This document shows, piece by piece, positions 49,098 through 61,685 of a stretch of 64,000 bases of DNA (the stretch's first letter is position 1; every line of letters starts with the position of its first letter). Origin of the DNA: Alphaproteobacteria bacterium. Its GTDB lineage: Bacteria > Pseudomonadota > Alphaproteobacteria > Rhizobiales > Rhizobiaceae. The translations under genes were made by a program, and so were the position numbers. The notes beneath the pieces are model-generated. The model did not search any database and was not told the DNA's origin. It saw only the letters and a list, made by a program, of their open reading frames with translations. The DNA lies in the NCBI GenBank assembly GCA_024742485.1, contig JANSYK010000001.1:682001-746000 (forward strand), written 5' to 3'.

Positions 49098-50470
<1,373 letters not shown>

Positions 50471-50645: not shown

Positions 50646-51026
50646 TCAACGCGATAGTCCGGAGACGAAGTTTTCGACATCCACGACCGCTTCGCTGAGC
50701 GCGTCATGCAGGATCCCGTCATTCGGGTCCTTTTCCAGACACTTGGCGGCCTTCGACACACAGAAGGCACCGACATTCGATGCAGATCCGTAAAGTGTCC
50801 GCACGACGGCAAGCCGGTCCTTCTTGCCGGTCAGATGACTGGAGCCGCAGAGCTGGTTGACACATTGGCGCGCCTGACGCGCAAACAGTCCCAGGACCTG
50901 CGCCTCCGCTTCCTTGTCTCCCATCGTCTTGCGGGCCAGATGGACAAGATCGATCGGCCGCTCACTGGAGGGGCTGACACTGTTATGAAGATCCGGAGAC
51001 TGAAAAGCCTCGCTGTAGCAAGCCAT
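50646..51026 (-). CDS. Hpt-fold protein lacking the phospho-accepting histidine
   Basis: A 126-residue protein. RPIDLVHLARKTMGDKEAEA, LGLFARQARQCVNQL and VVRTLYGSASNVGAFCVSK match the helices of histidine phosphotransfer domains. In Hpt proteins the key motif reads HxLKG; here the same place is RTLYG, with CGG for Arg where His is expected and TAC for the Lys. It therefore probably cannot carry phosphate and may act as a binding partner or inhibitor. It is divergent from the GPR-like gene. Confidence 0.75.
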   Translation of the reverse strand: MACYSEAFQSPDLHNSVSPSSERPIDLVHLARKTMGDKEAEAQVLGLFARQARQCVNQLCGSSHLTGKKDRLAVVRTLYGSASNVGAFCVSKAAKCLEKDPNDGILHDALSEAVVDVENFVSGLSR

Positions 51027-51440: not shown

Positions 51441-54400
51441 ATGGCGAAAAGAAGCGCTCAAAGTAAGTCTGTCGGCGACGATCCACTCAAGGCGTTGGAA
51501 GACGCTCTGCGGCTGGATCTTGAGAAAGACGGCGGATTGGATGGATCGGACGAGCCATCCTTGGATGACTTGGAAGCACAGGTTGCATCTGCGGCTGCCG
51601 AATTGGCAAAGGCCGATAGTGCGCCCGCGCCTGCCCCCGCTCCAAAGAGACAGCCGGCGCGCGCAGCTTCAAGCGCCCCACAACGCGCTGCTGCGCAAAA
51701 GCAGGCCGCGCCGAAGGAAAACGCCGGATCGGGCCGGTTGCCGCGACAGCAGCAAGCCAGGCCCCAGCCTCGTCCGCAAAAACGGGCCAGCGCCATTGCT
51801 GCCCAAAAACCGCCGCAGGCAAAACCATCATCTCCGCTGTTCGCACCGGCCAATGATGACAGCCGGGAATCGCGCGCCGCGATCATGCGCTCTCTGGACG
51901 GCAAGGGTGCCCGTTCGTCGAAGGCCATTACCTATGGACTTGCCGGGCTGTGGGTCATCGGTGGGCTTGGATTTGCAAACCTGGCCTATGGTCCCGGCAT
52001 CTGGCAGGCCCGTTCACTGGGCGATTTCGCCACCTACCCTGAATATCTGGTCACATTTCTGGCCGTCCTCCTGCCCGCGATGCTTATCCTGGCATTTGGC
52101 ATGATGATCGCGCGCGCCCAGGAAATGCGCGCCGTTGCCCGCTCAATGGCCGAGTTGGCTGTTCGGCTGTTCGAGCCTGAAACGATGGCAACCGACAACA
52201 TCATGCGTGTCGGACAGGCCGTCCGCCGCGAAGTTTCAGCCATCAATGAAGGCATAGAAAGAACCATTGCGCGCGCCTCCGAGCTGGAGACACTGGTGCA
52301 TTCGGAAATCAATGCGCTGGAACACAGCTATTCGGACAACGAAGTCAGGCTTCGCAGCCTTGTCGAAGGTTTGAGCAACGAACGCGAGGCGATTGTCAGC
52401 CACTCCGAACGGGTTCGAGCATCCATTGTCAGTGCGCATGAGCAATTGCGCGAAGAACTGGAAACCGCCGGTGACGAGATCTCCGGCCGCATTTCGACAT
52501 CGGGCAAGGCCGTCGCCGCCCTGTTGGACACGCGTACCACGAAACTCGGTGAACAGGCTGACGAACTGACCCAGTCTGTTTCGGACCTGCTGCAGAAGCG
52601 GACCGAAGCGCTGATGCTGTCATTCGGCAATTCGGGCCGTGCCCTTGCCAAGGAATTCGACAACCGGCTTGAAGCCCTTCAGGGCAATCTGACCGACCAT
52701 GGCGAACAATTGCTGGGTGAGTTCGAAACACGTGCTTCGTCGATCGACAGCAACACCAAGAAACTCAACACCATCCTCAATGAACGGGCACGTCAGCTCA
52801 ACGAAACCCTGATTACCCGTACCAAGGAAATCACGGAAAGTCTGACTGTCGGAGAACAGGCACTCAGCAGCGGCCTGGATGGCGTCATTGAATCGCTCAA
52901 CGGCAAACTCGACGAAAAGGCGGTCAATTTCCGCCAGAGCCTGCAGAACCACACCGAAGACACCATGAGCGATCTGGATACTCGCTCGGGCTTCTTCGCC
53001 GAGCGGTTGCAGGGAACCATATCGCAGCTCAACACGGCCTTCGATGAGCGTGTTGCCGAGTTTACATCGGCCTTTGAAGACCGCAGCGGCACACTGGCTT
53101 CCAAACTCAGTGACAGCCTCCGCGACATCAATGACACCCTGTCCGGCAGCACCGGTACAATCGAGGGAATTCTGAACTCCAATGCCACGCGCATTGCCGA
53201 CGGACTGGCTGAAAAAACCGCTTCGCTTGAAGAAATGCTGAGCGGCAGCAGCCTCGAAATCGAGCGCAAGCTGGAAGCCAAGGTCGGATCCGTTGAAGCC
53301 GCCCTCAACACCACGAACGAGCGCGTTGACGATCTCATGCAGGGTGGAACAGAAGCCATTGGACGTGCCGTCGGAGAACGCACGGCGGCCTTGGCATCAA
53401 CTTTGGATTCAAGTGCCAAGAACATTGCCGGCCTGCTCAACAGTGGCGCACAGACCATCAACAATGCGGCCATAGAAAACGCACAGCAGCTTGAATCGAC
53501 TCTAAGCAGCAGTGCTGAGCGTCTCGAAGGGCTGATCAGCTTCGGCACGGCGTCCATCAACAATGCGACCACGGACAGTGCAGAAAAACTGGAAACCACA
53601 CTGGGAGCCAATGCGGAACGTCTGCAAACGGTCTTCAAGGAAGGCACGCAGTCGATTGCCGGAACCTCCAACGAGAGCACCCAGGCACTGGCCAACACTC
53701 TGACAACCAATGCCGATCGACTGGACGGATTGCTGACCGAAGGCGCATCCGCCGTGAGCAAGGCGGTGACGGAAAACACCCACGCCCTCGCCGTTACTTT
53801 GGGATCGAATGCCGAGCGGATCGACAACATTATCCGTGAAGGCAAGGACACGATTGCCCGGTCTGTCGTCGACAACACCCAGTCACTTGGTTCGACCCTG
53901 GAAGAAACAGCCCAGCAGATTGACGGGCTGATGAAGGAAAGCACCAGCGCCATCGCACAATCGGTCGAGGGCAATGCGCAAAATCTTGCAGAAACCATGC
54001 AGGAAAGCGCAACGCGGATCGACACGCTGATGAAGGACAATGCATCTGCCATCACGCAATCGGTGGAAGGCAATGCACAGGTTCTCGCGTCGACACTGGA
54101 AGAACGGACCCATGCATTGGGTACGACCCTTCAGGACCGTGGTCGGGCCCTGGCTGCCGCCCTTGACAGCAGCACCGGCACACTTGCGTCCGCTTTGGAG
54201 GAACGTGAACTGTCGTTGACATCCACATTGGATGACCGGACCCAGACGCTGTCGGCCAATCTGGATGACCGGACCCAGACGCTTTCTGCCAATCTGGACG
54301 ACCGGACACAGACGCTGTCTGCATCCCTGGACGACAGAACGCACGCCCTCGCCTCCACCCTGGCCGATAGCGCCACGCAGATCAACGGACTGGTCAGTGA

Positions 54401-57050
54401 AGGCGCTGAAGCGATCGCCAAATCGGTCGAAGGCAACACACGGGCGCTGGCAGCCACCTTGGGCTCCAACGCCGAGCGTCTCGATAATCTGGTGCGCGAC
54501 GGTGCTGAATCCATCACCAAATCGGTGGTCGACAACACCCAGGCGCTGGAACTCACGCTCGAGACCAACGCAGATCGTATCGAAACGATGCTGAACACCG
54601 GCAACAATGCGATTTACGACACGCTTGCGAAGGAAACAGCGGCCCTTTCCAACAAACTCGACGAATCCGTTGGATCCATGGACGCCATTCTCGTCGAAAA
54701 TGTCGAGCGCATCGGCACAACGATGGACGGGCGGACCGCCAATATCGAAGAACGCCTGCAGACAATGAACACGGCGTTGAATTCAGGACTCGAAAGCGTC
54801 AGCACGACGATTGAAAGCCAGGCACGCGGCATGGCCACCTCCCTGCGGGAAGCCGTGTCACAAGCGGTTGAGCAAATGGATGCCGAAGCGGAACGCTCGG
54901 CGCAGTCGCTTGACGGCATCAGCGAGAAATTTGCGTCGCAGCTCAATTCGGCCGCAGCCAATTACTCCGAGGCGGTTGAAGTGCGGATCTCCGAGCGGGC
55001 CGAGTCGCTGAACAGGCAACTCTCGGAACTCACCGGGCATCTGAGTGAAAGCGAAACCGGCATATTGACAGCGGCGCAGTCGATCACAAGCGCAGCCACA
55101 AGCGCCGGCGACAAGATGGAACAGCAGGCTCAGGCCATTGCCGTTCAGTTTGCCGATAGCGAAAAGGCGCTGGATGTGCGCAATGACGCCATTCGTTCCG
55201 CGCTCGATGAAAGGACGCGGGAGCTTAACTCCATGCTCTCCAGCCGTTCCAGCGAGTTTGCCAGCCTGATCGAAGAAAAGGCTGCTCCGCTGGTCGAAAC
55301 CTACGCTGAGCATGGCAACGAGATTGCCAGACGCCTGGACGAAATCAGCCGCGACAGCGCTGAGAAGATGAATGCCCAGAGCACCGCCTTGGTCGATGCA
55401 CTGACATCGCGCACAAGCGAAACCCTGGCAGCCATCGAAAGCGCCGGCAGCGGCCTGAAGTCCGAAGTCACGGAACTGGTCGCCGAACTTGGCCGAAGCA
55501 ATTCTGCGATTTCCAACCTGGTCAACAACACGGCCGCAACGCTTGTCGATGTCGACACCAAACTGACGGAAACAACAGAGAAGTTTGCCGGTTCTGCCGG
55601 CAAGGCAGCCGAACTGTTCGCCGACTCCACTCAGGTGCTTCAGTCGAACATCAACCAGCTCGACACGATCTCCAACGACACGCTTGGACGGGTCAGTGCG
55701 ATCGCCGGAAGCTTTGATGATCATTCGAAGGTTCTGGCCTCCGCATCCGATCTGCTGGGTTCGGCACAATCGAGCCTCGCCAACACCCTGGAAGAGCGCA
55801 AGGACGCCCTGGATGGCCTGTCCAGCGGTCTGGTCAAGCGGTCCGAAGAAATCGAAAAGACCATGCGGTCACTCGAAACGATTGTCGAAGATGCCTTTGG
55901 CAAAGCCAAGGAAAGGGCGACATCGACAGCCTCAGAGCTCTCAGGCAGCCTGTCGTCGTCGCTTGAAAAGATCGGCGGGATGCTGGCCGATACGGAAAGC
56001 CGCTCCGCCAGTGCCGCGGAAAAGATGCGCGGTGCGATCAAGGACGCGGTGGAGGATGCCGTCAAGCGTTTCTCCGGTGCAACCGACGAGATCCGCAAAT
56101 CCGCCGGCGAAATTCGCGACGAATTGAAGGAGACCAGATCGGAAATCAAGAAAGGCGTTTTCGATCTGCCGGAAGAAACACGCGAAAGCACAGCAGCGAT
56201 GCGCAACGCCGTATCCGAGCAGATCAAGGCGCTGCAGGATTTGTCCGCGATCGTCGAGCAATCTTCCCAGATGCTCGAACACTCCGGACCTGGTGCGCCT
56301 GAGCCAAAGACCGTTGCGCCACCTGCCCCGACACCAGCACCTGCGCCTGCACCCGCTGCAGCCGCCGTCGCTGCGACGGCCGCGCCGTCGGTCACCAAGG
56401 AGCCTCAGCCCGCTGCTGTGTCAGCTGCGCCCGCTCCGCGCCCCAGCCGGGTCACCTCGCCGATGGAAACCAAACCGGCTGCAGCCCCGGCACCTGCCAA
56501 ACCGGCGACCGGACTACGGGGTGGATTGTCCGCCTCGACGACCACCGGTGCGTCTCGGCCAAACGACACCCGCAAGCCGCAGGGTGAAGGATGGGTCCGT
56601 GATTTGCTGCGTGGTGCTTCGCAGGACGAGGACAGCGCCGCCACGCCGCAACGCAATGCAGGTGCAGCAGCACCCAACAGCAATGGCCGCACCAGAAACC
56701 CGCGTCAGATGGTGGAATCACTGAATTCGCTGTCGGTCGACATTGCCCGCGCAATCGACCACGACGCCTCCGTTGATTTGTGGAGACGGTACCAGAGTGG
56801 TGAACGGGATATCTTCACCCGCCGCCTTTACACACTCAAAGGGCAAAAGACCTTTGAGGAAATCAAGACCAAGTACAATCAGGAACCCGAGTTCCGCAGT
56901 GCAGTCGATCACTATATTCTTGATTTTGAAAAGCTGCTCGGAGATGTCGCGAAAAACGATCGCGACAAGGTGGTGACCCAGACCTATCTGACCTCAGATA
57001 CCGGCAAGGTCTATACCATGCTTGCCCATGCAAGCGGCCGTTTGAAATAG
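51441..57050 (+). CDS. Giant membrane-anchored coiled-coil protein, Growth Pole Ring (GPR)-like
   Basis: 1,869 residues. Residues 1-160 are Ala/Pro/Gln-rich and basic; helices at about 163-184 and 201-224 anchor it in the inner membrane; residues about 230-1615 are nearly unbroken apolipoprotein/MCP-like helix with 11-residue repeats; residues 1615-1690 are Ala/Pro-rich; a conserved globular end (1753-1869) includes SVDIARAIDHDASVDLWRRY. This layout matches GPR (Atu1348) of Agrobacterium tumefaciens, which forms a ring at the growth pole and is essential for polar growth and rod shape. The start at 51441 is the ATG in AGGATGGCG; an upstream frame at 51408 adds 11 residues. Confidence 0.8.
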   Translation: MAKRSAQSKSVGDDPLKALEDALRLDLEKDGGLDGSDEPSLDDLEAQVASAAAELAKADSAPAPAPAPKRQPARAASSAPQRAAAQKQAAPKENAGSGRLPRQQQARPQPRPQKRASAIAAQKPPQAKPSSPLFAPANDDSRESRAAIMRSLDGKGARSSKAITYGLAGLWVIGGLGFANLAYGPGIWQARSLGDFATYPEYLVTFLAVLLPAMLILAFGMMIARAQEMRAVARSMAELAVRLFEPETMATDNIMRVGQAVRREVSAINEGIERTIARASELETLVHSEINALEHSYSDNEVRLRSLVEGLSNEREAIVSHSERVRASIVSAHEQLREELETAGDEISGRISTSGKAVAALLDTRTTKLGEQADELTQSVSDLLQKRTEALMLSFGNSGRALAKEFDNRLEALQGNLTDHGEQLLGEFETRASSIDSNTKKLNTILNERARQLNETLITRTKEITESLTVGEQALSSGLDGVIESLNGKLDEKAVNFRQSLQNHTEDTMSDLDTRSGFFAERLQGTISQLNTAFDERVAEFTSAFEDRSGTLASKLSDSLRDINDTLSGSTGTIEGILNSNATRIADGLAEKTASLEEMLSGSSLEIERKLEAKVGSVEAALNTTNERVDDLMQGGTEAIGRAVGERTAALASTLDSSAKNIAGLLNSGAQTINNAAIENAQQLESTLSSSAERLEGLISFGTASINNATTDSAEKLETTLGANAERLQTVFKEGTQSIAGTSNESTQALANTLTTNADRLDGLLTEGASAVSKAVTENTHALAVTLGSNAERIDNIIREGKDTIARSVVDNTQSLGSTLEETAQQIDGLMKESTSAIAQSVEGNAQNLAETMQESATRIDTLMKDNASAITQSVEGNAQVLASTLEERTHALGTTLQDRGRALAAALDSSTGTLASALEERELSLTSTLDDRTQTLSANLDDRTQTLSANLDDRTQTLSASLDDRTHALASTLADSATQINGLVSEGAEAIAKSVEGNTRALAATLGSNAERLDNLVRDGAESITKSVVDNTQALELTLETNADRIETMLNTGNNAIYDTLAKETAALSNKLDESVGSMDAILVENVERIGTTMDGRTANIEERLQTMNTALNSGLESVSTTIESQARGMATSLREAVSQAVEQMDAEAERSAQSLDGISEKFASQLNSAAANYSEAVEVRISERAESLNRQLSELTGHLSESETGILTAAQSITSAATSAGDKMEQQAQAIAVQFADSEKALDVRNDAIRSALDERTRELNSMLSSRSSEFASLIEEKAAPLVETYAEHGNEIARRLDEISRDSAEKMNAQSTALVDALTSRTSETLAAIESAGSGLKSEVTELVAELGRSNSAISNLVNNTAATLVDVDTKLTETTEKFAGSAGKAAELFADSTQVLQSNINQLDTISNDTLGRVSAIAGSFDDHSKVLASASDLLGSAQSSLANTLEERKDALDGLSSGLVKRSEEIEKTMRSLETIVEDAFGKAKERATSTASELSGSLSSSLEKIGGMLADTESRSASAAEKMRGAIKDAVEDAVKRFSGATDEIRKSAGEIRDELKETRSEIKKGVFDLPEETRESTAAMRNAVSEQIKALQDLSAIVEQSSQMLEHSGPGAPEPKTVAPPAPTPAPAPAPAAAAVAATAAPSVTKEPQPAAVSAAPAPRPSRVTSPMETKPAAAPAPAKPATGLRGGLSASTTTGASRPNDTRKPQGEGWVRDLLRGASQDEDSAATPQRNAGAAAPNSNGRTRNPRQMVESLNSLSVDIARAIDHDASVDLWRRYQSGERDIFTRRLYTLKGQKTFEEIKTKYNQEPEFRSAVDHYILDFEKLLGDVAKNDRDKVVTQTYLTSDTGKVYTMLAHASGRLK
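54099..54362 (+). repeat. Eight tandem 33-base (11-residue) repeats in the GPR-like gene
   Basis: Eight in-frame 33-base units encode 11-residue blocks. Units five and six (54231-54296) code for the identical DDRTQTLSANL, and unit seven (54297-54329) for DDRTQTLSASL; the others diverge, for example EERTHALGTTL and DDRTHALASTL. An 11-residue period is the hendecad of straight coiled coils and apolipoproteins. Low divergence of units five to seven suggests recent duplication. Confidence 0.85.
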
Positions 57051-57361: not shown

Positions 57362-57964
57362 TCAGATGATTTTGAGCGCCCATGAAACGATGTCACGGAC
57401 AACCTCACCATTGGCCCGGTCGAGCGCCGCAATGAACGCATCCTTGCCCTCGCCGCTGACCGGCGATGTAGCCTGAAACACCCGCTGCGCCCTGACAACG
57501 CCGTTTCGGTCATTGATGATGCGTACCGAGATTTCGACAACCGCGGTGTCCCCACCACCGGCCACCACCTCGAATGCCCGGATTGTCGGTGAAACCAGAT
57601 AGTCGACCGCAAGTCCGTCACCGGGCTTGCCAACGCCGCCCAGCCGCTTGGAATCCTCAAAAGCCTGGATCAGCTTCTGTTGCACGACCGCCGGCAGATT
57701 ATCGTTCCACTGGGATTTTGAGAGATATTCAATCGATGACGGTGAGGTGCGGACCACGATGTTCGAACCGTCCAGCGATTTCAGCGCCGTCGGATCCGTC
57801 ACGACGATCTGGCGCCGCCTGGAATAGGGTCCGCGTACCGGTTCGATATCGGTCAATTCGAAAGTATCAGGCGGCGGGCCGCTGAAAACCGAGCAACCGG
57901 GCAGCATGGCGGCACTGACGATCAACAACGCAGCGGCGCGCAGGTGTTTTTGCCTTTTGGTCAA
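57362..57964 (-). CDS. ABC-type transport auxiliary lipoprotein (PqiC/DUF330-like)
   Basis: A 200-residue lipoprotein with lipobox LPGCS and the LSKSQWNDNLPAVVQQKLIQAF motif of the auxiliary components of Mce transporters. The mature part probably sits at the outer membrane. It closes the mlaE-mlaF-mlaD series and follows mlaD by 166 bases. Confidence 0.9.
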   Translation of the reverse strand: MTKRQKHLRAAALLIVSAAMLPGCSVFSGPPPDTFELTDIEPVRGPYSRRRQIVVTDPTALKSLDGSNIVVRTSPSSIEYLSKSQWNDNLPAVVQQKLIQAFEDSKRLGGVGKPGDGLAVDYLVSPTIRAFEVVAGGGDTAVVEISVRIINDRNGVVRAQRVFQATSPVSGEGKDAFIAALDRANGEVVRDIVSWALKII

Positions 57965-58130: not shown

Positions 58131-59510
58131 CTAGCGGCGCCGACGGCCATCATACTGTTTTACCGTACCCTGTGTCCCGAATATCAGACTATTCGGTTGA
58201 TCGCCAATATTCGTGATCGTCCGTTCGATCCGCGTGATCGACCGGCGCGCCTCTGACACAAGCGCATCAAAGTCGCGCAGTCCGGAGCCGGAAAACCGCT
58301 GCAGATTGGACGCGATCGGCCCGATATGCGCGTTGATCTTGTTGGCGACCTCCTGAAACGTCTGCAAGGTCTTCTTGGCTTCCGCGATCAGGCCGGAAGT
58401 GTCTCCGTCACCCTGCCCCAGGAAACCGTCAAGTTTCTTGAGCGTTGTCTGAACCATCAGGGCGGCATCGTTTAAGCGAGCCGTCAGCTGGTCTGCATTG
58501 GTGATAATGTTGTTGATATCCTGATTGCGGTTGCCAATCGTATCGGCCACCTGAACGAGACTGTCGATCCCTTGGCGGGCCTGTGCACTCGCCGCTGATA
58601 CATTGTCGACGGTCTCGCTGATTTTCGTGGTGTCGACCGCGTCGACGATGGCGTCGACGCGGGCCAGCGTCACATTGGCGTCCTGACCCAATTTGGCGAT
58701 ATTCGCCGCCGCGGTTCTGGCCTCTTCCAGAACCGGTCTGATCTGATCCGACGCATTGGCGACATCAACGGAGACTTTTTCTACATTGCGCACGATCGCC
58801 GTCACGCGTTCGGGCTCAACCGCACCAATCAAGGCTTCCGACTTGGCCACGATGCCTTCGAGCTTGCCTGAAACGTTCTGGAGCGTTGTCGAAAGTGACG
58901 AGACGCTCTTGAGAAAATCACTGATGCCATCGGAATTCTCAGCCAGCGCCGCGGAAAAGCGCTCTGCATTGTTGACGGTTTCGGTCAGCGGCCCCTTCGC
59001 CGTTTCGACAAATCCTTCGACATCCGTGACCGCCTTGCTGACCCGCGCCATGATATCTTCCGCCGTCGCCAACAGATTGGTGACACTCGATTCATCGGCA
59101 GTCAGAACCGCAAAGCTTCCTTTATCGGCTGCTTCCTCGAGAATGTTCTTTCCACCGGCCTTTCCTGCACTGAGTTCGATATGCGATTGGCCCGTCAATC
59201 CCTGAATTCCCAGTTTGGCCTTGGTGGTCTCATAGACCGGTGCCGTGGCGCGAACCTCTGTCATGGCCAGGACGAAATTCGGATCGACACCATCAATGGT
59301 CAATGATCGAACGGAACCGATGCGAATCCCGTTGAAGAGCACCGGGGCGCCCACCGACAGACCGCTGGCCGATCCGGGAATTCTGATTTCGAGCTGTGCC
59401 ATTTCGCCCGACTTGCCGAATGTCGCCATCCAGTAAACGAAGCCGAACGCTGCAGCCATGACCAGCAGGGTAAAGAAGCCCACAATTGTGTAATTGGCCT
59501 TGGTTTCCAT
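58131..59510 (-). CDS. mlaD: MlaD family MCE-domain protein
   Basis: A 459-residue periplasmic protein. One N-terminal helix (YTIVGFFTLLVMAAAFGFVYWM), then an MCE domain at about 38-118 (LEIRIPGSASGLSVGAPVLF, GLTGQSHIELSAG), then about 300 residues of helical coiled coil. MlaD-type proteins form a hexameric ring through which lipids pass between membranes. At 459 residues it is longer than the roughly 180-residue E. coli MlaD, the usual state in rhizobia. Confidence 0.94.
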   Translation of the reverse strand: METKANYTIVGFFTLLVMAAAFGFVYWMATFGKSGEMAQLEIRIPGSASGLSVGAPVLFNGIRIGSVRSLTIDGVDPNFVLAMTEVRATAPVYETTKAKLGIQGLTGQSHIELSAGKAGGKNILEEAADKGSFAVLTADESSVTNLLATAEDIMARVSKAVTDVEGFVETAKGPLTETVNNAERFSAALAENSDGISDFLKSVSSLSTTLQNVSGKLEGIVAKSEALIGAVEPERVTAIVRNVEKVSVDVANASDQIRPVLEEARTAAANIAKLGQDANVTLARVDAIVDAVDTTKISETVDNVSAASAQARQGIDSLVQVADTIGNRNQDINNIITNADQLTARLNDAALMVQTTLKKLDGFLGQGDGDTSGLIAEAKKTLQTFQEVANKINAHIGPIASNLQRFSGSGLRDFDALVSEARRSITRIERTITNIGDQPNSLIFGTQGTVKQYDGRRRR

Positions 59511-59571: not shown

Positions 59572-60390
59572 TTATGGCCCTACTTTTTCCGCCCGCACAA
59601 GCGAACGGGCGCGTTTGCCCTGGAAATAGGATTTGATCCACGGATCATCATTGGCCAGCATGTCCTCGATCGTTCCTGCAAGTGCAATTCGCCGTTGCCC
59701 CAATACGGCTATTCGGTCACACACCGAAAACAGACTATCCAGATCATGGGTCACCATGTAAACGGTCAGGCCAAGCGTATCCCGCAATTTCGCGATCAAT
59801 TCATCGAATTCCGCTGCACTGATGGGATCCAGACCCGATGTCGGCTCGTCCAGAAACACCAGGTCCGGATCAAGTGCCAGCGCTCGGGCCAGTGCGGCGC
59901 GCTTGGTCATGCCGCCGGAAAGTTCCGAGGGATACAGATCAGCAGTCTCCGGCCGCAATCCCACCAATTCGATTTTCAGCAGGGCCAGCTCATCCATCAG
60001 CTTTTTCGGAAGGTCGAGATACTCACGCATCGGCACCTGGATGTTTTCCAGAACCGTCAGCGCCGAAAACAGTGCGCCATGCTGAAACAGCACACCCAGC
60101 CGCATATCCAGCGCGATGCGCTGTTGAGGACTTGCTGAATCATAGTCCACCCCCAGAATCTTGATCGTTCCGGCCTGCCGGCGGGACAATTGCAGAATCG
60201 TTCGCAGCAGAACCGATTTACCGGCGCCGGATGCACCGACAAACCCGAGAATTTCACCCCTTAGAATATCCAGATCGAGGTTTTCCAGCACGCGATGCGA
60301 GCCAAAAGACACGCTGATTCCGCGCGCTTCCAGGATGATCTCGCGCGGCGCGGCGTGGCCGTTTCCGGCGGTGATGTCCGATGGCGCCAT
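59572..60390 (-). CDS. mlaF: MlaF-type ABC transporter ATPase
   Basis: A 272-residue ABC ATPase. Walker A is GASGAGKSVLLRT, the signature is YPSELSGGMTKRAALARAL and Walker B is LVFLDEPTSGLDP. It energises phospholipid transport with the MlaE permease. The ATG at 60390 shares one base with the permease stop; the frame to 60654 is not coding there. Confidence 0.95.
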   Translation of the reverse strand: MAPSDITAGNGHAAPREIILEARGISVSFGSHRVLENLDLDILRGEILGFVGASGAGKSVLLRTILQLSRRQAGTIKILGVDYDSASPQQRIALDMRLGVLFQHGALFSALTVLENIQVPMREYLDLPKKLMDELALLKIELVGLRPETADLYPSELSGGMTKRAALARALALDPDLVFLDEPTSGLDPISAAEFDELIAKLRDTLGLTVYMVTHDLDSLFSVCDRIAVLGQRRIALAGTIEDMLANDDPWIKSYFQGKRARSLVRAEKVGP

Positions 60391-61685
60391 CAAAAGTCGA
60401 TTGCCCCGTAGAATATGGCGAACACGCCGTCCACCAGAATCACCACAAAGATCGATTTGACCACGGCAGAGGTCACGTGTCGTCCCAGTGATTCGGCACT
60501 GCCGCCGACTTTCAGCCCCTCGACCGAGGAGACGATACCGATGATCAGCGCCATGAAAGGTGCCTTGATCATTCCCGAAACGATCGTTGACATGTCGATA
60601 GCCTCGCGCAGACGCGTCAGAAACGTTTCCGGCGTGATGTCGGAATAGACCCAAGTCGTCATGCAGGCACCGAATAGCGCCGCGAAATTGGCCACGATGG
60701 TCAAGGCGGGAAGCATAACCGTCAACGCGACCAGCCGCGGAAAGACAAGCACGCCAACCGGATTGAGGCCCATGACCTTGAGCGCATCAACCTCCTCTCG
60801 CATCTTCATGGAACCGATTTCAGCGGTGATGGCGGAGCCTGACCGGCCGGCGATCATGATGGCCGTCAGAAGGACGCCGATTTCACGCAGCTGCAAGATA
60901 CCGACGAGATCGACCACAAACAGTTCAGCGCCAAAATAGCGCAGCTGGAAGGCCCCCTGCTGCGCGATGATGCCTCCGATCAGGAATGACATGAGCGCAA
61001 TTATCGGAACTGCCCGAACCCCCATATGGTCCATCTGGCTGACAATCGCCGCCGCCGATATGCCCGACGCGCGGTTGACCTTGACCTGTGCCCCACGCAC
61101 GGCGGATCCGAGAATGAAAAGGGCGGCTACAAAATCATCCCTGAACGCATAGGTCAATCGCCCGACCGGGTCGAAAATGCGTTGTGCCCAGGACGGTTTC
61201 GGTCCGCTGTCATCATGATCGGAATGCTTGACGGTCAGCGCCTTCCCAACCGCATCCAGCAGGGTCACGCGGTCACCAGTCACCGAATGGAAGGCGGCGT
61301 CAATTCCCTTTTTTTCAAGCCGTATGCGCATCCGGGCGGCAATCAGTGCGCCGGATGTATCCATATTGCGCACACCGGCCAGATCGATCGCAACGGCTCC
61401 ACTGCTGATCGAATCAACCGTTTTTCGCACTTTGGCATCAATCTCGGCGACGCTGTGCAATTGCCAGTCGCCGGAAAGCTGAACGATGGTCTGTCCTTCG
61501 TTCTGGGTCACTTCAATGCGGGGAGGAATCATTTCTCCATGCGGATCAAGCTTCTGGTTGGCAAGACCCGGCGACGCGGACTCATGTGCGGACGACAACG
61601 ACATCCTGAACACATAGCCAGTTAATCCCCCCGTGTCACCGACAAACAAGCCGGTCCGGCGAGCATTGACGGGAGCCTGTGACAT
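60390..61685 (-). CDS. mlaE: MlaE-type permease with N-terminal STAS domain
   Basis: About 431 residues from 61685, or 404 from the ATG at 61604. Residues about 55-145 form a STAS-like domain (VAIDLAGVRNMDTSGALIA). The rest is the MlaE permease with FLIGGIIAQQGAFQLRYFGA, LREIGVLLTAIMIAGRSGSA and MREEVDALKVMGLNPVGVLV. The STAS fusion replaces the separate E. coli MlaB. GGAG 10 bases before 61685 favours the longer start weakly. Confidence 0.92.
   Translation of the reverse strand: MSQAPVNARRTGLFVGDTGGLTGYVFRMSLSSAHESASPGLANQKLDPHGEMIPPRIEVTQNEGQTIVQLSGDWQLHSVAEIDAKVRKTVDSISSGAVAIDLAGVRNMDTSGALIAARMRIRLEKKGIDAAFHSVTGDRVTLLDAVGKALTVKHSDHDDSGPKPSWAQRIFDPVGRLTYAFRDDFVAALFILGSAVRGAQVKVNRASGISAAAIVSQMDHMGVRAVPIIALMSFLIGGIIAQQGAFQLRYFGAELFVVDLVGILQLREIGVLLTAIMIAGRSGSAITAEIGSMKMREEVDALKVMGLNPVGVLVFPRLVALTVMLPALTIVANFAALFGACMTTWVYSDITPETFLTRLREAIDMSTIVSGMIKAPFMALIIGIVSSVEGLKVGGSAESLGRHVTSAVVKSIFVVILVDGVFAIFYGAIDF

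Follow-up and report, generated by a model that had tools for sequence, protein, structure and literature searches.

A probable GPR/RgsE growth-pole scaffold of a Rhizobiaceae-type bacterium and its predicted kinship with TipN

Introduction

Rhizobia confine the growth of their wall to a single pole and do so without an MreB system. GPR, the Growth Pole Ring protein of Agrobacterium, is to our knowledge one of the few known scaffolds for this polar growth. In Caulobacter, the new pole is marked by TipN, which binds ParA and directs the placement of the flagellum.

According to excerpts of PMC8262873, six GPR foci make up a ring at the growth pole of Agrobacterium, and cells without GPR become rounded. 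RgsE of Sinorhizobium meliloti (SMc00190) is a protein of 2,089 aa that is 42% identical to GPR, and it contacts TolQ, RgsA and RgsS (PMC7327166, excerpts). The relationship of these scaffolds to TipN has been worded in different ways: in the excerpts consulted, GPR has 'similarity' to TipN in PMC8546619, and TipN, at 882 aa, is called 'analogous' to GPR in PMC13170164. Furthermore, a TipN-like factor has been postulated in Hyphomonas (PMC6650430, excerpt), and, according to an excerpt of PMC5182065, TipN is missing from the majority of alphaproteobacterial genomes.

Here we analyse an open reading frame in a stretch of 64,000 nucleotides (the window, by which we mean that whole stretch). Our main reading, to which we give a probability of about 0.87, is that it encodes GPR/RgsE, the scaffold of the growth pole, in a bacterium of Rhizobiaceae type, and that this protein is a member of a TipN/GPR family across Alphaproteobacteria. 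A middle part whose length varies greatly connects two conserved ends; in the window's order this middle is an 11-residue helical repeat. The gene's kind is already known; new to a specialist would be the domain-level link to TipN, the unnamed C-terminal domain (CTD), a ShpA-type neighbour that has apparently lost its active His repeatedly, and the register-locked stalk.

Results

Identity and layout of the window protein

The gene is a single uninterrupted frame (ATG at 51441, stop at 57048-57050), the parts of which are listed in Table 1. When the 6.87-Mb genome that carries the gene was searched for paralogs at the protein level, only the self-match came back at E <= 0.001. The window protein was 45.6% identical to a 2,089-aa protein of S. 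meliloti strain Ak57 over 1,778 aligned residues and 44.3% identical to its A. vitis counterpart (locus L051) over 1,807 residues, against 76% and 79%, respectively, over the last 130 residues. The Ak57 protein is annotated as 'kinesin' in its record and was taken as RgsE by its match to the published length. That record (L002, CP090106.1) is labelled plasmid pSymB and is 3.7 Mb long; the rgsE-like, folP and cytochrome c1 genes that it bears suggest a chromosome under the wrong label.

A contig search for relatives gave 596 candidates and 580 confirmed loci, of which the best 80 were used. Their titles name Rhizobium, Sinorhizobium/Ensifer, Agrobacterium, Shinella, Hoeflea, similar genera and 'Rhizobiales bacterium', and by the usual placing of these genera we call the 80 loci Rhizobiaceae-type. 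The closest relative among the matches listed is from an uncultured 'Rhizobiaceae group' member (L035; 92% identity in the CTD by the contig search, 67.8% over the whole protein), and in the other comparisons CTD identity to Rhizobiaceae-type relatives was 76-91%. Among 84 rows from the matches listed (the window included), the 58 with both anchor motifs have stop-to-stop frames of 1,671-2,668 residues, and frames lacking an anchor extend up to 2,975 residues.

Table 1. Positions of the scaffold gene, its parts and its neighbours in the window
Feature	Position	Strand	Basis
gpr/rgsE ortholog (predicted), 1,869 aa	51441..57050	+	alignment to S. meliloti 2,089-aa protein; 80 named loci
Pro/Ala-rich N-terminal segment, ~residues 41-150	51561..51890	+	composition
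Membrane helix 1 (predicted), ~residues 163-185; conserved Trp, weak hydropathy	51927..51995	+	alignment
Membrane helix 2 (predicted), residues 206-224; conserved Pro	52056..52112	+	hydropathy and alignment
Conserved juxtamembrane helix, ~residues 225-306; common to TipN-like family	52113..52358	+	
Hendecad stalk, ~residues 307-1208; 11-residue repeat, 33-residue super-repeat	52359..55064	+	
DNA tandem repeat, period 33 bp (one hendecad), 2.8 copies, 91% matches	54229..54322	+	
Trailing helical region with phase shifts, ~residues 1209-1580, to near FDLPEE (1574)	55065..56180	+	
Linker, ~residues 1581-1740, Pro/Ala-rich at 1601-1700	56181..56660	+	composition
Conserved C-terminal domain (CTD), residues 1741-1869; all-helical model	56661..57047	+	
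Divergent ShpA-type protein of predicted HPt fold; Arg for phospho-His, Tyr for motif Lys	50646..51026	-	
2Fe-2S ferredoxin; 75/75 loci (best 80 of 580 plus L002 and L004)	50150..50470	-	
ABC transport auxiliary lipoprotein (PF03886), convergent	57362..57964	-	
MlaD/MCE protein (PF02470), convergent	58131..59510	-	
ABC transporter ATPase (PF00005), MlaF-like by position	59572..60654	-	

In a hydropathy scan of the window protein, the helix at residues 206-224 was strong (mean 2.56) and the only one above the cut-off of 1.6, whereas the helix at ~163-185 fell below this cut-off and was recognised by its alignment with the helices of relatives and by an invariant Trp (20 rows). The predicted topology, with two N-terminal membrane helices and the bulk of the protein in the cytoplasm, is that of GPR/RgsE. 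Pro/Ala-rich stretches lie at ~41-120 and 1,601-1,700. The preliminary description, which was made from the letters alone, had named a GPR-like layout with two membrane helices, Pro/Ala linkers and a conserved C-terminal domain, and all of these were recovered: the closest proteins share the membrane module, the repeat, the CTD and the gene neighbourhood, and the similarity to the S. meliloti and A. vitis proteins runs from end to end rather than being confined to unrelated coiled coils. Its figure of about 1,400 residues of helical repeat was slightly high but fair, given a proline-free run of 1,036 residues from residue 247 and the FDLPEE motif at 1,574. Like the window protein, RgsE and GPR (Atu1348) have N-terminal membrane helices, Pro/Ala linkers, a CTD and a long helical repeat that scores as PF01442; at 1,869 aa, however, the window protein is shorter than RgsE (2,089 aa) and GPR (2,115 aa; PMC8262873, excerpt). 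Thus, by alignment and layout, we assign the window protein as the GPR/RgsE ortholog. Across the whole window, the site GANTC is rare (148 found vs 333 expected), as expected if CcrM methylation is used.

The C-terminal domain

No family in Pfam or NCBIfam covers the CTD. The preliminary description had proposed to check its conservation by profile search: within the class, a 4-row profile matched in 147 of 385 genomes at E <= 0.001, and a 58-row profile matched in 155 of the same 385 (108 of 277 genera) at E <= 1e-4, leaving 230 genomes with no match at that threshold. A single match per genome was found in 146 of the 155; the other nine had three matches (G231, G344) or two (G021, G068, G099, G153, G285, G345, G363). 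In a phylum-wide sample the CTD was present in 110 of 398 genomes, all 110 from the window's class or closer, and within this sample it was found only in that class.

In 60 loci from other families, the CTD ended no more than 20 residues from the frame end in 58 of the 59 measured, the CTD of L172 having scored too low for its position to be taken; in L161 a stop lies inside the CTD match of its frame. The exception, L156 (genome G300), carries its CTD 411 residues before the end of the open frame, followed by several membrane helices, and is a possible fusion or frame artefact. At the hydropathy cut-off of 1.6, at least two N-terminal helices were found in 43 of these 60 loci, one in 15 and none in two, one of the latter being L152, which is truncated where its contig stops. 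Frames in group f25 are short (329-481 residues) and almost without stalk; the f25 locus read, L172, is a short version with two membrane helices and a CTD.

The AlphaFold model of the CTD is all-helical, with middling confidence (pLDDT 70.9, pTM 0.62), and gave no convincing fold match when compared with PDB structures. The preliminary description was right that the domain is conserved, but its statement that no function is known did not stand: according to excerpts of PMC8262873, Agrobacterium GPR lacking the last 221 residues no longer complements, and removal of the last 10 residues gives curved cells. Judged by its profile matches, the CTD is a widespread, undescribed domain.

Relation to TipN

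For comparison with TipN, a Caulobacteraceae-like group (f66) was selected by PopZ similarity. The PopZ of one of its genomes, G458, is 100% identical to the C. crescentus PopZ sequence. G458 also encodes a protein with 112 residues identical to C. crescentus ShpA (PDB 2ooc), and its CTD protein is 882 aa long from the first ATG; by length, architecture and genome identity, we took this 882-aa protein as TipN. The 4-row CTD profile had missed all three f66 genomes of the class sample, while the 58-row profile found them with modest scores. A 55-row CTD profile matched in 66 of 80 f66 genomes at E <= 1e-4 and gave no match at that threshold in the remaining 14. These 14 include all seven sampled genomes of the f66 genus g296 (G404, G416, G428, G437, G445, G451, G457), where the missing match may reflect loss or divergence of the TipN-like protein.

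Profiles of 14 TipN-like proteins from f66 were compared with GPR-side rows by hhalign. The CTD of f66 matched that of 58 GPR-side rows at 98.6% (E 1.3e-15, 115 columns) and that of 16 rows from the window's order at 95.1% (E 3.2e-8), and the membrane module matched that of 20 GPR-side rows at 99.0% (E 4.3e-18, 172 columns). Reversed alignments and 30 column shuffles of each domain, used as controls, never rose above 4.8%, and cross-comparisons of CTD with membrane module stayed at 0.1-0.3%. Because both ends match and the controls are negative, TipN and GPR are probably homologs at both ends, and the profile comparisons favour placing TipN and GPR/RgsE in one family, as homologs more than analogs. 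C. crescentus TipN thus appears to share its membrane module and CTD with the window protein and likewise has a helical middle; it differs in being less than half as long (882 aa) and in the period of that middle (3.59 vs the hendecad 3.66).

We had considered that the printed statement on the rarity of TipN was contradicted by these matches, a reading that was dropped after the class-wide recount: with a relative in 155 of 385 genomes, the statement could hold to the letter even though the family reaches widely. The preliminary label 'of polar-growing Rhizobiales' was too narrow for the family, which is class-wide and includes TipN-like proteins, but it fits the hendecad stalk, which was found only in the window's order.

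The hendecad stalk

In residues 331-1560 of the window protein, hydrophobicity peaked at a period of 3.66 with a power of 98, compared to 0.3 at the heptad period of 3.5, and sequence identity peaked at lags of 33, 66, 11 and 22. The S. meliloti stalk had the same period with lags of 22, 44, 29 and 11, so the strongest repeat lag is 33 residues in the window protein and 22 in S. meliloti. The hydrophobic phase was nearly constant from ~439 to 1208. Two positions of the 11-mer were strongly hydrophobic (79% and 82%) and the rest polar, acidic or small; this narrow stripe favours a coiled-coil rod.

The period peaked at 3.64-3.69 in all 78 Rhizobiaceae-type rows measured among the matches listed and in four of four same-order loci from families f2 and f3, whereas nine of nine loci outside the window's order peaked at 3.57-3.63 (these 13 non-Rhizobiaceae-type loci being hand-chosen). 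In a separate measurement, a TipN-like protein peaked at 3.59 and a Sphingomonas protein at 3.57. The hendecad stalk is a candidate rhizobial specialisation. Long members of ~2,000-2,400 residues also occur outside the order (L135, L147, L158 and L167; families f40, f70, f108 and f130), and since their periods are strong but different (3.57-3.63), long stalks seem to have more than one origin.

Anchor-to-anchor distances, measured in 58 of 84 rows from the matches listed, took 45 distinct values between 806 and 1,690 residues. In these 58 rows the distances were not multiples of 7, 11, 22 or 33. They stayed in helical phase for a period of 11/3 residues (R 0.611, p 5e-8 over the 45 distinct lengths, a p value that is only indicative because the species are related and unit duplication could contribute); the largest R of 2,000 random sets was 0.377, and a free scan gave a best period of 3.6645. 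The stalk region contains DNA repeats of 33 and 99 bp, which suggest recent unit duplications, and the kept register could stem from duplication of the 33-bp unit instead of selection. At the textbook helix rise of 0.15 nm per residue, 1,700 residues amount to ~255 nm, near the 200-nm ring. In an excerpt of PMC8262873, an extended helix of 1,700 residues is put at 600 nm.

Neighbouring genes

Gene order was read in the best 80 of the 580 loci plus L002 and L004 (82 in all), with the upstream side present in 75 and the downstream side in 79. Upstream, the divergent Hpt-like gene lies beside the scaffold gene in 75/75 loci, and folP is found in 72/75. The window, like S. meliloti Ak57, has ferredoxin, Hpt and folP upstream, the gene order by which we recognise GPR/RgsE. 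A pyridine-nucleotide-disulphide oxidoreductase gene (window 49098-50216) lies between folP and ferredoxin; only 9 of these 75 loci have such a gene on the upstream side. Downstream, and always convergent, MlaD is present in 49/79 loci and the auxiliary lipoprotein in 50/79; the Mla genes are present in the window but absent in S. meliloti Ak57. Of the 60 other-family loci, eight have MlaD-like genes near the scaffold gene and nine have the auxiliary lipoprotein there, and the 14 f66 loci read had neither an Mla nor an Hpt neighbour. An Hpt-like neighbour occurred in 12 of the 60 other-family loci at E < 1e-6 (f2, f3, f6, f12, f118, f123, f125), with weaker matches in L128 and in L150 (a long, unrelated-looking frame); a Sphingomonas plasmid locus has an Hpt neighbour by annotation that the Hpt profile did not reach.

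In Caulobacter, ShpA passes phosphate from ShkA to TacA, which drives spmX (PMC7010744, excerpt). ShpA (2ooc) was the best PDB match of the Hpt profile (E 6e-17) and its only match in G458 at E <= 0.001. The window's Hpt-like protein itself had no match in Pfam, whereas 45 of 50 family members match PF01627. Its structural model (pLDDT 81.4) gave a Foldseek probability of 1.00 to many HPt proteins, the best E value being 2.5e-3 and none at <= 0.001, and a TM of 0.73 by target with 2ooc. The model thus predicts an HPt helical-bundle fold. Unlike ShpA, the window protein lacks both the phosphoacceptor His, where it has Arg, and the motif Lys; moreover, shpA is apart from the scaffold gene in the Caulobacter-like genomes read, while the two genes adjoin in the window. 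In the C. crescentus-like genome, the start of the shpA open frame is overlapped on the opposite strand by a tRNA-Lys gene (L212, 1879-1954), and the solved ShpA starts downstream of this gene.

Among the matches listed, 62 of 78 Rhizobiaceae-type loci retain the phospho-His and 16 have lost it; it is gone in the window and present in S. meliloti. All 12 other-family loci retain it, and two Sphingomonas-type loci, L003 and L128, have lost it. A tree of the 78 rows needs no more than three changes, which fall on the window together with L035, on a single Pseudorhizobium and on 13 grouped rows of Ciceribacter/Peteryoungia. This tree was quick, 27 of its 74 inner branches are weak, and the change count itself cannot tell gain from loss; the three changes are read as losses because outside families keep the His. 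The eight different replacement residues in the 16 loci had pointed to many losses, a reading that was discarded in view of the tree. Since the gene stays in place after loss of the His, a role independent of phosphate transfer is suggested, and gene order makes the ShpA-like neighbour a likely partner or regulator within the pathway of the scaffold.

Alternative readings

The window protein is extremely unlikely to be a long coiled coil of no particular kind, perhaps with a ZorA-like tail, that has nothing to do with polar growth. It does match the NCBIfam ZorA model (E 1.9e-17), but the score of 62.8 bits is below the curated cut-off of 190, the best stretch (995-1176) lies inside the repeat, and the membrane module, CTD and gene order all fit GPR. 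Coiled-coil proteins are prone to spurious matches, and this bears on the proposal that GPR and TipN are merely analogous, as PMC13170164 labels TipN in the excerpt consulted: two-helix coiled-coil proteins would then have converged on a polar role, in line with the stated absence of TipN from most alphaproteobacterial genomes and with the 230 genomes of our sample that gave no CTD match. The parts that match are, however, the two ends, the repeat not being involved; their E values are low, with shuffles, reversals and cross-comparisons all negative, and the CTD occurs once per genome in nearly all matching genomes. We regard mere analogy as highly improbable, and common descent of the two ends remains our preferred reading.

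A more serious competitor concerns the repeat, which may be a true apolipoprotein-like lipid-binding array whose membrane-folding modules sort lipids at the pole. This published view, argued in PMC8262873 with two domains modelled on apolipoprotein A-IV (excerpts), has support here: over the whole window protein, PF01442 'Apolipoprotein' scores 187.5 bits against a cut-off of 90, as is also published for GPR (PMC8262873, excerpt), the only PDB matches of residues 331-1300 at E <= 0.001 were two entries of apolipoprotein A-IV (5e-8 and 9e-8), the 11- and 33-residue helical periodicity is that of the apolipoprotein A1/A4/E family, and MlaD of a lipid transporter is a frequent neighbour. Yet the best single PF01442 stretch in the genome search reached 45.9 bits, below the cut-off. 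The window protein differs from the apolipoproteins in its membrane anchor and in having no proline punctuation over the 1,036-residue run, and its two strongly hydrophobic positions in 11 make a narrow stripe that looks more like a coiled-coil core than a broad lipid face (measured in the window protein alone). Register is preserved along the whole stalk, something that separate modules would have no use for, and members outside the order have other periods. We therefore consider a lipid-binding array possible but rather unlikely; a continuous hendecad coiled coil fits the sequence pattern better than separate lipid-binding modules.

Discussion

The mechanism that we propose is conditional throughout. 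The membrane helices would anchor the scaffold at the new or growing pole, and the hendecad stalks of several chains may assemble laterally, forming a long coiled-coil rod in the cytoplasm. This rod would carry the CTD on its Pro/Ala linker near the growing pole, where the CTD heads might dock partners of the envelope-building machinery, the products of the ShpA-type and Mla-type neighbours being candidates.

A bolder picture, which we offer as doubtful speculation, is that of one ancient pole-scaffold family comprising GPR, RgsE, TipN and many unnamed proteins of alphaproteobacteria, with the CTD as their common working head. The rhizobial hendecad rod would then be a molecular ruler for the growth-pole ring, and the ShpA-type protein an ancestral partner, the His-less version of which would only bind, coupling the scaffold to the cell-cycle phosphorelay or uncoupling it.

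The ShpA-type and Mla-type neighbours offer two concrete candidate partners. The CTD merits a family entry of its own, and it may serve as a handle for finding the TipN-like factor postulated in Hyphomonas, as the family appears to extend well beyond the named TipN sequences. Finally, a tie of GPR and TipN by two probably homologous domains would make results from the two model systems directly comparable.
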